Origin: Heyndrickxia coagulans 36D1
GTDB lineage: Bacteria > Bacillota > Bacilli > Bacillales > Bacillaceae_C
NCBI RefSeq assembly: GCF_000169195.2
Contig: NC_016023.1
Coordinates: 3,410,001-3,474,000, forward strand
Reading direction: 5' to 3'
Length of the DNA: 64,000 nucleotides
Each line of letters starts with the position of its first letter. The stretch's first letter is position 1. Below the pieces are notes generated by a model. It was not told the origin of the DNA, did not search any database, and saw only the letters and a list, made by a program, of their open reading frames with translations. A program made the position numbers and the translations under genes. This document shows positions 32,465 to 39,660 of the stretch, piece after piece.

Positions 32465-32524
32465 AAAAAAATCCCCCTTTTGGTATGCATGAACATAACG
32501 AACCATGGGAGGACAAAAGAAATT

Positions 32525-32608
32525 CCACATCCCTACGCCGGCATTAACCGGACAGGTTCAAAGGGTCAGAACATGGCGTTCACTCTCAGCTTAACGCTCC
32601 CCCTGTGG
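32525..32608 (-). promoter_or_regulatory. TPP riboswitch (THI element)
   Basis: On the minus strand the sequence holds the conserved THI-box parts: GCTGAGAGT, then ACCCTTTGAACCTG, then GTTAATGCCGGCGTAGGGA. The closing P1 helix is CCACAGGG with the end GTGG. It lies about 60 nt before the thiT start. Downstream, CCTCCC could pair with the GGGGG of the thiT SD, so control may be translational; that part is inference. Confidence 0.95.
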
Positions 32609-32670
32609 TTACGTTCATGAAATTGTCACCTTTATGATAAACTTTTTGCCACAACATTTCAACAAAAAAT

Positions 32671-38391: not shown

Positions 38392-38420
38392 TTGTAAAAC
38401 AGACAAAATTAAAGTATACT
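38392..38420 (+). promoter_or_regulatory. Promoter of the yidC leader operon
   Basis: TTGTAA (38392-38397) and TATACT (38415-38420) are exactly 17 bp apart, a good sigma-A-type promoter. Transcription would start near 38427 and give a leader that includes the 102-codon ORF and yidC. Confidence 0.6.
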
Positions 38421-38453
38421 TTGTACTGATCTCTTTAAAGTGAGTGAATAGCT

Positions 38454-38762
38454 TTGATTCAAAACATCATCGATTTTGTAAATGACCCGGCCGTCTGCAC
38501 GCTGTCATTTTACGTACTGGCAGCAGGTTTTCTTTATTTGAGCCGGTTTGTGATCAGGCCGGCAGCGTTTGTTGAAGCAAGGCCTGCCGCCGTCATGCAG
38601 GATTTTACTGTACACACCCGCCCGGCTGCGGAATGCCGGTGCAATTTCTTTACGATTTGGATTTTAAGTTGCGTCAGAATACGGACATATCCTTCTGAAG
38701 ATCCTGATTCGGAACCGGATTTAAGACCGGTCAGAAAGGACAGGATTTGTGCAATATACTAA
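38454..38762 (+). CDS. Candidate MifM-like arrest leader peptide upstream of yidC
   Basis: This 102-codon ORF (TTG start, weak SD AAAGTGAG) ends at the SD of yidC. Its product has one hydrophobic segment (about residues 13-34), a short linker and a C-terminal segment FFTIWILSCVRIR (65-77), followed by acidic residues E82, D83, D85, E87 and D89. B. subtilis MifM, which controls yidC2 by ribosome stalling, has the same layout: a TM segment, an R-I-x-x-W-I motif and then an acidic stretch. The stop codon (38760-38762) abuts AGGAGG of yidC. I infer a regulatory nascent chain; the likeness is in pattern, and the arrest sequence itself differs. Confidence 0.6.
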   Translation: MIQNIIDFVNDPAVCTLSFYVLAAGFLYLSRFVIRPAAFVEARPAAVMQDFTVHTRPAAECRCNFFTIWILSCVRIRTYPSEDPDSEPDLRPVRKDRICAIY

Positions 38763-38772
38763 AGGAGGATAT
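38687..38772 (+). promoter_or_regulatory. Hairpin sequestering the yidC ribosome-binding site
   Basis: ATATCCTTCT (38687-38696, leader codons 78-81) can pair with AGGAGGATAT (38763-38772), which contains the yidC SD. This gives 10 bp with one G-U pair. Inside it ATCCTG (38701-38706) pairs with CAGGAT (38741-38746), and ACCGG (38714-38718) with CCGGT (38727-38731). A ribosome stalled near codons 81-85 of the leader would open the outer helix and free the SD. Confidence 0.6.
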
Positions 38773-38775
38773 TTC

Positions 38776-39552
38776 ATGAAAAGATTTTTCAGTTTTACAT
38801 TGGTTTTAAGCAGTTTGCTGTTCGTTTTAAGCGCATGTTCAAATTCAACAAACAGCACGCACAGCGGTGGATTTTTCCATCATTATTTTGTTTCCCCGTT
38901 TTCAGTTGTCATTAAAGCAACGGCCCAGCTGCTTCATGGTGATTACGGGATTGCCATTATTGTTTTGACGTTAATCATCCGGCTGATTCTCATGCCTTTT
39001 ATGCTGCATACATTCAAAAAACAGCAAATCATGCAGGATAAAATGAAAGTTTTGAAGCCGGAAATGGATAAGCTGCAGACAAAAATCAAAGCGGCCAAAA
39101 CGAAAGAAGAACAGGCAAAGCTGCAGCAGGAAATGATGGGGTTGTATCAAAAACACGGCGTTAACCCGCTGAATATGGGCTGCCTGCCGATTATCATCCA
39201 AATGCCGATTTTAATGGGGTTTTATTATGCGATCCGCGGCTCGAAAGAAATCGCCACCCACTCCTTTTTATGGTTTAATCTCGGACAAACAGATATTCCG
39301 ATGGCCATTCTCGCTGGTGTCATTTATTTTATCCAAGCCCAAATTTCACTGATCGGTATTCCTGAGGAACAGAAGAAACAAATGAAATATATGATGCTCA
39401 TGTCGCCGATCATGATCCTTTTTGTTTCTTTTTCAGCTCCGGCGGTTCTGCCGCTGTACTGGACAGTGAGCGGGCTCTTTATGATCGGACAAACACTGAT
39501 TCAGAAAAAATTTTATCAGTCCCATCCGCCGAAGGAAGAATCCAATTCATAA
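38776..39552 (+). CDS. yidC: Membrane protein insertase YidC (OxaA/SpoIIIJ family)
   Basis: This 258-aa lipoprotein-type YidC has a signal peptide with lipobox LSAC (Cys23), then five membrane helices. The hydrophilic-groove Arg lies in IIVLTLIIRLILMPF, and the cytosolic hairpin (HTFKKQQIMQDKMKVLKPEM) is typical. It inserts membrane proteins alone or with Sec. The ATG at 38776 follows AAAGGAGG. The upstream leader ORF suggests this is the inducible copy, equivalent to B. subtilis YidC2 (YqjG); that is inference. Confidence 0.94.
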   Translation: MKRFFSFTLVLSSLLFVLSACSNSTNSTHSGGFFHHYFVSPFSVVIKATAQLLHGDYGIAIIVLTLIIRLILMPFMLHTFKKQQIMQDKMKVLKPEMDKLQTKIKAAKTKEEQAKLQQEMMGLYQKHGVNPLNMGCLPIIIQMPILMGFYYAIRGSKEIATHSFLWFNLGQTDIPMAILAGVIYFIQAQISLIGIPEEQKKQMKYMMLMSPIMILFVSFSAPAVLPLYWTVSGLFMIGQTLIQKKFYQSHPPKEESNS

Positions 39553-39576: not shown

Positions 39577-39618
39577 AAAAGCGGCGGGTCACAGTTGATG
39601 TGTTCCCGCCGCTTTTAT
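39577..39618 (+). terminator. Terminator of yidC
   Basis: AAAAGCGGCGGG (39577-39588) pairs with CCCGCCGCTTTT (39605-39616), extended inside by CACA with TGTG. The flanks suit both strands, and it also lies after the convergent rok stop. Confidence 0.85.
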
Positions 39619-39660
39619 GTTGTTTACAGCCCCGGGTTTCCGGGGATTTTTTATACAGGT

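Follow-up and report, generated by a model that had tools for sequence, protein, structure and literature searches.

Upstream of the second yidC gene of Heyndrickxia coagulans 36D1 lies a short reading frame that ends at the Shine–Dalgarno (SD) sequence of that gene, which raises the question of whether it encodes an arrest peptide of the MifM type and, if so, from which side the SD of yidC2 is hidden. The monitoring of YidC by MifM through translational arrest is established in Bacillus subtilis, and the H. coagulans group comprises probiotic, lactic-acid-producing bacteria. We analyzed a stretch of 64,000 nucleotides around the locus (the window) together with genomes of relatives from the same family and order. 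An initial annotation of this DNA had proposed a MifM-like arrest peptide that controls yidC and has its own SD-hiding helix.

The leader ORF is directly upstream of the second yidC and on the same strand, and its stop codon (TAA, 38760–38762) abuts the yidC2 SD, 13 nt before the yidC2 ATG (Table 1). The description of a 102-codon ORF that has its own well-spaced promoter and ends at the yidC SD thus holds, with a 17-nt spacing and a conserved site. A promoter scan over 1.4 kb returned five promoter-like sites against 3.2 ± 1.6 in shuffled sequences, so the scan alone proves little; the promoter and the AAAGTGAGTGA element are both conserved in an alignment with seven relatives (seven of ten homologous loci were taken in). 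The TTG start is kept in five of five members of the genus, including this one. A second YidC is encoded in the same genome (G000:C1:1392683-1393456) between ORFs resembling rnpA and jag, which we take to be the SpoIIIJ-type locus. The Rfam scan of the window found nothing at the leader/yidC2 locus, and its sole match was a TPP riboswitch (32513–32613, minus strand, 75.6 bits). On the 3′ side of yidC2, an inverted repeat (AAAAGCGGCGGG...CCCGCCGCTTTTA, 39577–39617) is probably, as judged by eye, the yidC2 terminator; a scan lists another at 39630–39645.

Table 1 Features of the leader/yidC2 locus, in window coordinates
Feature	Position	Strand	Description or basis
Promoter-like site, TTGTAA-17-TATACT	38392..38420	+	Scan; conserved in seven aligned relatives
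Likely SD region of the leader ORF, AAAGTGAGTGA	38439..38449	+	Conserved; perfect GGAGG absent
mifM orthologue, leader ORF	38454..38762	+	102 codons, TTG start
N-terminal hydrophobic segment, codons 12–34	38487..38555	+	Hydropathy (Kyte–Doolittle)
Arrest-motif region, W69-I70 ... E82-D83-P84-D85	38658..38708	+	Alignments, profiles, motif from PMC7897499
Outer helix, 5′ arm (codons 78–81), complementary to the yidC2 SD	38687..38696	+	Folding, shuffles, consensus fold
Inner helix, left side; covers presumed stall codons 82–86	38699..38710	+	Partly conserved
Innermost 5-bp hairpin	38714..38731	+	Folding; absent from the four-species consensus
Inner helix, right side	38738..38748	+	Folding
Outer helix, 3′ arm including the yidC2 SD (GGAGG 38764–38768)	38763..38772	+	Folding
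yidC2	38776..39552	+	258 aa YidC/Oxa1 insertase, lipoprotein-like N-terminus, PF02096 152.9 bits

The encoded peptide resembles MifM in its architecture. Hydropathy places a single N-terminal membrane segment, as had been claimed, with its maximum within residues 12–34 (a moderate Kyte–Doolittle value of 1.59, based on hydropathy only), preceded by acidic and followed by basic residues. This segment lies 51 residues before D85, close to the published median of 54 residues between membrane segment and stall (PMC10987492). The arrest motif of B. subtilis MifM is RIXXWIXXXXXMNXXXXDEED (PMC7897499), and stalling there occurs predominantly at codons 89–92 (PMC6037786), equivalent to codons 85–88 of the window leader. 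W69-I70 is found at the place of B. subtilis W73-I74, and E82-D83-P84-D85, three of four acidic, at the place of D86-E87-E88-D89. The spacing rule that the initial annotation applied to Trp69 therefore stands, with the acidic residues corrected from positions 12–16 after the tryptophan (codons 81–85) to positions 13–16 (codons 82–85). B. subtilis R69/I70 and M80/N81 are unmatched, the window leader having F65/F66 and I76/R77. The arrest sequence does differ from that of MifM, but these positions also vary among aligned relatives, so the difference is weak ground for the suggestion of a new variant. Judged by its sequence, the peptide half is ordinary for MifM, with the arrest itself predicted; the feature that looks new in the alignments and RNA models is the position of the SD-hiding arm.

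Homology to MifM emerged from profiles rather than from the single sequence. The leader alone matched no family in Pfam or NCBIfam at E ≤ 1, and phmmer with the single protein against the PDB returned nothing up to E = 10. Among the 177,635 PDB sequences used for the profile searches, B. subtilis MifM (3j9w) was the top match of profile A5 (42 leaders, built without the B. subtilis-like row L144) at E = 9.7e-5, followed by a designed helical bundle (E = 0.018) and, third, a MifM-stalling construct (0.57). It was also the top match of profile A2 (30 rows, E = 0.0062) and of profile A1 (11 close homologues), in the latter case at only E = 0.75. The search of genome contigs with profile A1 gave five named loci, none of them from B. 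subtilis. Based on synteny, the membrane segment, the spacing of W-I and acidic residues, profile homology, the presence of a SpoIIIJ-type YidC and the SD-hiding helix, the MifM-like reading finds support, and as far as sequence comparison goes the leader is a MifM orthologue.

The four congeners found, H. coagulans DSM 1 (G002), H. acidiproducens (G004), H. ginsengihumi (G001) and G003, each have a homologue immediately before yidC2, with the reading frame, the TTG start and the C-terminal motif kept. Over codons 2–85, dN/dS was 0.016/0.090 relative to DSM 1, 0.253/1.150 relative to G003 and 0.393/1.648 relative to H. acidiproducens. Codons 86–102 are without protein constraint relative to DSM 1 (dN 0.171, dS 0.091), and they are nearly absent from the 87-codon G003 peptide, which ends in TYPSEDPDAG, near the acidic end of B. 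subtilis MifM. These alignments indicate that purifying selection acts on the leader as far as codon 85, and the comparison of ORFs upstream of yidC proposed at the outset thus comes out in favor of a coding leader in 4/4 congeners. The corresponding dN/dS for yidC of L001 and L002 was discarded, as a one-codon indel makes the value invalid. Beyond the genus, 29 other genomes of the family were searched, and six gave strong profile A1 matches (E ≤ 1e-39). Five of these adjoin yidC2 on its upstream side. The remaining one (L098 in G012, which matches H. sporothermodurans DSM 10599) has an intact mifM that is separated from yidC2 by a transposase gene of the IS110 family (PF01548 and PF02371; oriented coordinates 1056–2855), an arrangement that should uncouple the pair.

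We then extended the comparison to the family and the order. Two YidC genes were present in 48 of the 60 genomes searched (own included), and a leader-type ORF (a small frame encoding a hydrophobic stretch near the N-terminus and an acidic block near the C-terminus) precedes the second yidC in 48/48 of these and the sole YidC of G044; as frames were chosen by eye, the figure is a description and no blind test. The leaders of G035, G038, G043 and G045 fit the shared motif poorly and were kept out of the profiles. When 130 genomes of the order were searched with a profile, 54 had a match at E ≤ 0.01, so for many genomes either the profile fails to detect the gene or the gene is absent. Eighteen of the 54 had been used before; of the 36 unused, 32 formed a second set, and G146, G081, G096 and G155 were left out as doubtful (internal stops, long frames, partial matches). 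All 32 loci of the second set have the leader followed by a yidC homologue in the assigned frame.

Refolding recovered the helix described in the initial annotation: codons 78–81 pair with the yidC2 SD over 10 bp, including one G-U pair, and enclose two further helices. In a consensus fold of the window species, DSM 1, G003 and H. acidiproducens, all ten pairs of the outer helix are present in 4/4 sequences. Within this helix, a single pair changes from U-G to C-G and none changes on both sides; as the covariation term in total is slightly unfavorable (+0.44), covariation lends no support. The arm codons ACA TAT CCT (78–80), together with GAA GAT (82–83), are identical in the window species, G003 and H. 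acidiproducens, whereas only 10 of 29 other amino-acid-identical codons are unchanged among them; DSM 1 differs at codon 82 (GAG). Residues 78–79 are T-Y, which within profile A2 is seen in the H. coagulans clade alone.

The location of this arm sets the clade apart from most other loci. For each locus, the best SD complement was sought both 5′ (−26 to +2, counted from the P-site nucleotide) and 3′ (+3 to +27). The better one lay 3′ in 41/47 loci of the first set and 28/32 of the second, the exceptions in the latter being L130, L132, L136 and the misplaced L146 (counted among the 32 and 79 here and removed from later statistics). Judged by 500 shuffles, 42 of 79 loci have a 3′ arm with p < 0.05 and nine have such a 5′ arm. 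The window species, DSM 1, G003 and H. acidiproducens have the 5′ arm only (p = 0.004, 0.012, 0.008 and 0.002, against 0.26–0.84 for the 3′ arm), with pairing energies of −14.6 to −16.9 kcal/mol on the 5′ side versus −3.5 to −9.4 on the 3′ side. Both arms are present in H. ginsengihumi (L005) and L010, and L129 and L131 have p < 0.05 on the 5′ side yet a stronger 3′ arm. L065, L077, L130 and L132 favor the 5′ side without significance and L136 does so slightly (p = 0.026); a preference for this side is thus not confined strictly to the clade.

To model the consequence of arm position, we moved a ribosome footprint (−14 to +15), a crude stand-in for the ribosome, along the mRNA and read out the free energy of opening the SD. 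This measure replaced SD-pairing probability, which was dropped because it barely changed on stalling in many loci, GGAGG finding weak partners anyway. The statistics cover 77 loci, that is, 47 from the first set and 31 from the second, minus L078, where the acidic block is 166 nt from yidC2; L009 (insertion) and L089 (yidC start unassigned) were outside the RNA models. With the P-site on the fourth acidic codon, the SD opening energy falls in 75/77 loci, and in the window from 8.1 to 2.5 kcal/mol. In the model, then, a ribosome stalled at the acidic codons (82–85) would cover the left arm and open the SD, as had been proposed.

The direction of the switch differs between the clade and the other loci. 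In the 73 other loci, the mean opening energy drops from 9.6 kcal/mol at five codons before the fourth acidic codon to 3.0 at that codon and to about 2 past it. The mean for the four-species clade is 3.0–3.4 as far as that codon and rises to 6.1 and 8.2 one and two codons further. By a criterion of 1 kcal, 67 of the 77 loci are forward, three reversed (DSM 1, G003 and H. acidiproducens) and seven neither. The modeled SD would thus open only when the ribosome reaches the acidic block in the 67 loci of Bacillales, where the hiding strand is 3′ of the block. Re-closing occurs one to two codons past codon 85 in three of the four clade species; the window species, classed as neither, re-closes only about five codons past it. 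With footprints of −11..+13 and −17..+17, run on 37 of the 73 other loci, the average direction was kept and the edge of the clade mean shifted by about one codon; with the widest footprint, re-closing is delayed to +5 to +6 in the window species and DSM 1. Taking alignments and models together, the H. coagulans clade appears to have a mirrored RNA switch, with the hiding strand 5′ of the acidic block.

An alternative is that the leader is MifM and that the helix between codons 78–81 and the SD is not the working switch, the SD being hidden by another pairing or by a weakened 3′ arm. Longer folds do contain alternative SD partners, and the stall effect shrinks in them (free versus stalled, 4.9 versus 2.5 kcal/mol in the window, 4.7 versus 4.2 in DSM 1 and 5.0 versus 4.7 in G003). 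The 151-nt fold of the window is only moderately better than shuffles (z = −1.88, 8/200 as good). Synonymous randomization in the longer fold window gave p = 0.109 for the window, 0.297 for DSM 1, 0.119 for G003 and 0.010 for H. acidiproducens, hence no significance in three of four species (across the first set, p ≤ 0.05 in 14 of 47 loci). Against this, the SD pairs better with the 5′ arm in each of the four species, and the arm codons show unusual conservation. We consider this alternative unlikely, though the least unlikely of those weighed here.

A different account is simple translational coupling, in which the helix is unfolded by ribosomes that terminate on the leader and then re-initiate at yidC2, with no arrest. 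The stop codon abutting the SD in the window and DSM 1 is what such coupling would predict, but elsewhere its position is not conserved: across the 77 loci it lies anywhere between 95 nt past the yidC2 start and 52 nt ahead of it (sd 29.7), with 52 nt ahead in G003 and 26 nt ahead in H. acidiproducens. The fourth acidic codon, by contrast, keeps its distance to the yidC2 start (58.8 ± 4.4 nt, range 48–74, and 70 nt in the window). As the acidic block holds a near-constant distance while the stop varies, the stall codon rather than the stop would be the functional position, which argues for arrest and against termination coupling. The peptide is also selected up to codon 85 and, relative to DSM 1, not beyond. 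Coupling without arrest is accordingly improbable. That the ORF encodes a small membrane protein with its own function, linked to yidC2 merely by an operon, is less probable still. A conserved small protein with a membrane segment under purifying selection would fit this account, but conservation centers on the W-I to acidic region, whose distance from the yidC2 start is nearly fixed, the middle of the leader varies freely and the strong matches lie by yidC2.

We therefore return to the leader as an arrest peptide. Based on sequence and models, it is very probably the mifM of this species, which would monitor YidC activity on behalf of yidC2 by means of arrest and an SD-hiding strand at codons 78–81. 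The N-terminal segment would be a YidC substrate; when its insertion is slow, the nascent chain would hold the ribosome at about codons 82–85, where it would cover codons 78–81, so that yidC2 could be translated. Insertion would pull on the chain, elongation would resume, codons 78–81 would emerge behind the ribosome and the SD would be hidden again. With the hiding strand 5′ of the stall codon, the productive stall is predicted at or before about codon 85, and in the model it is mainly stalls up to about codon 85 or 86 that keep the SD open.

The outgroups and H. ginsengihumi carry a 3′ arm, so the move of the arm probably took place in the ancestor of the four species, as ordered by YidC2 identity. 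It is quite possible, if somewhat short of probable, that in this clade the hiding strand moved from 3′ to 5′ of the stall codon, into a tolerant spacer of the motif and by way of a two-arm intermediate such as that of H. ginsengihumi, and that the switch re-closes soon after the ribosome leaves. If this is true, the stall is needed at or before about codon 85, and the arrest would have a sharper, self-resetting read-out rather than one that stays open until termination. The locus would then be a natural variant in which the RNA half appears mirrored and the peptide half kept, and it could be used to ask at which codon productive stalling occurs and whether leakiness or reset time depends on switch direction. 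Should the ordinary reading alone apply, the locus adds another mifM to those known.

Compared with known systems, the locus shares with B. subtilis mifM (yqzJ)/yidC2 (yqjG) the gene order, the N-terminal membrane segment, an SD-hiding hairpin, a SpoIIIJ-type YidC and W-I followed by an acidic block at W+13 to +16, in a peptide of 102 rather than 95 residues. It differs in having EDPD for DEED, in the leader stop that abuts the SD in the window and in the 5′ arm, the 3′ side having been computed on the B. subtilis-like L144 as a proxy. Clostridial CliM (uC_KYxIW) likewise monitors YidC as an arrest peptide encoded upstream of yidC, with a stem-loop where that gene starts, but its motif is KYxIW (K65/W69) and it has no sequence similarity to MifM (PMC13183943). 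Actinobacterial ApcA is also an arrest-peptide leader upstream of yidC2 (PMC7897499, PMC10987492), but with an R-A-P-G arrest end. Neither KYxIW nor a C-terminal motif like RAPG/RAPP (ApcA, RAPP-type) is present in the translation of the leader ORF.

In 2024, 572 non-redundant MifM sequences from 592 Firmicutes genomes were classified (PMC10987492), and this species may be among those genomes. A literature search gave no match for MifM with coagulans. No description of the arm side relative to the stall codon across species was found in the available parts of PMC10987492, PMC7897499, PMC13183943, PMC4423224 and PMC6037786 or through literature searches; the Chiba MifM papers of 2009, 2012 and 2015, outside this scope, may contain one. 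The geometry across loci suggests a design rule in which the acidic block lies about 59 nt before the yidC2 start and the stop is free to move, and this rule could find MifM-type leaders where sequence similarity fails.

Several loci of the survey depart from the common layout. In L080, L083, L088, L094, L095, L111, L133, L137 and L147, the leader ORF overruns the yidC2 start by 37–95 bases in another frame, so the yidC2 SD is inside the leader coding sequence. In the loci L059–L077 of genera g6 and g7, yidC2 seems to be TTG-started behind GAAGGGTGA- or GAAAGGTGA-like SDs, compared with mostly GGAGG elsewhere. G044 (L086) and G089 (L112; 94% complete), both of family f12, show a single YidC gene that carries a mifM-type leader, so the sensor would there control the sole insertase.
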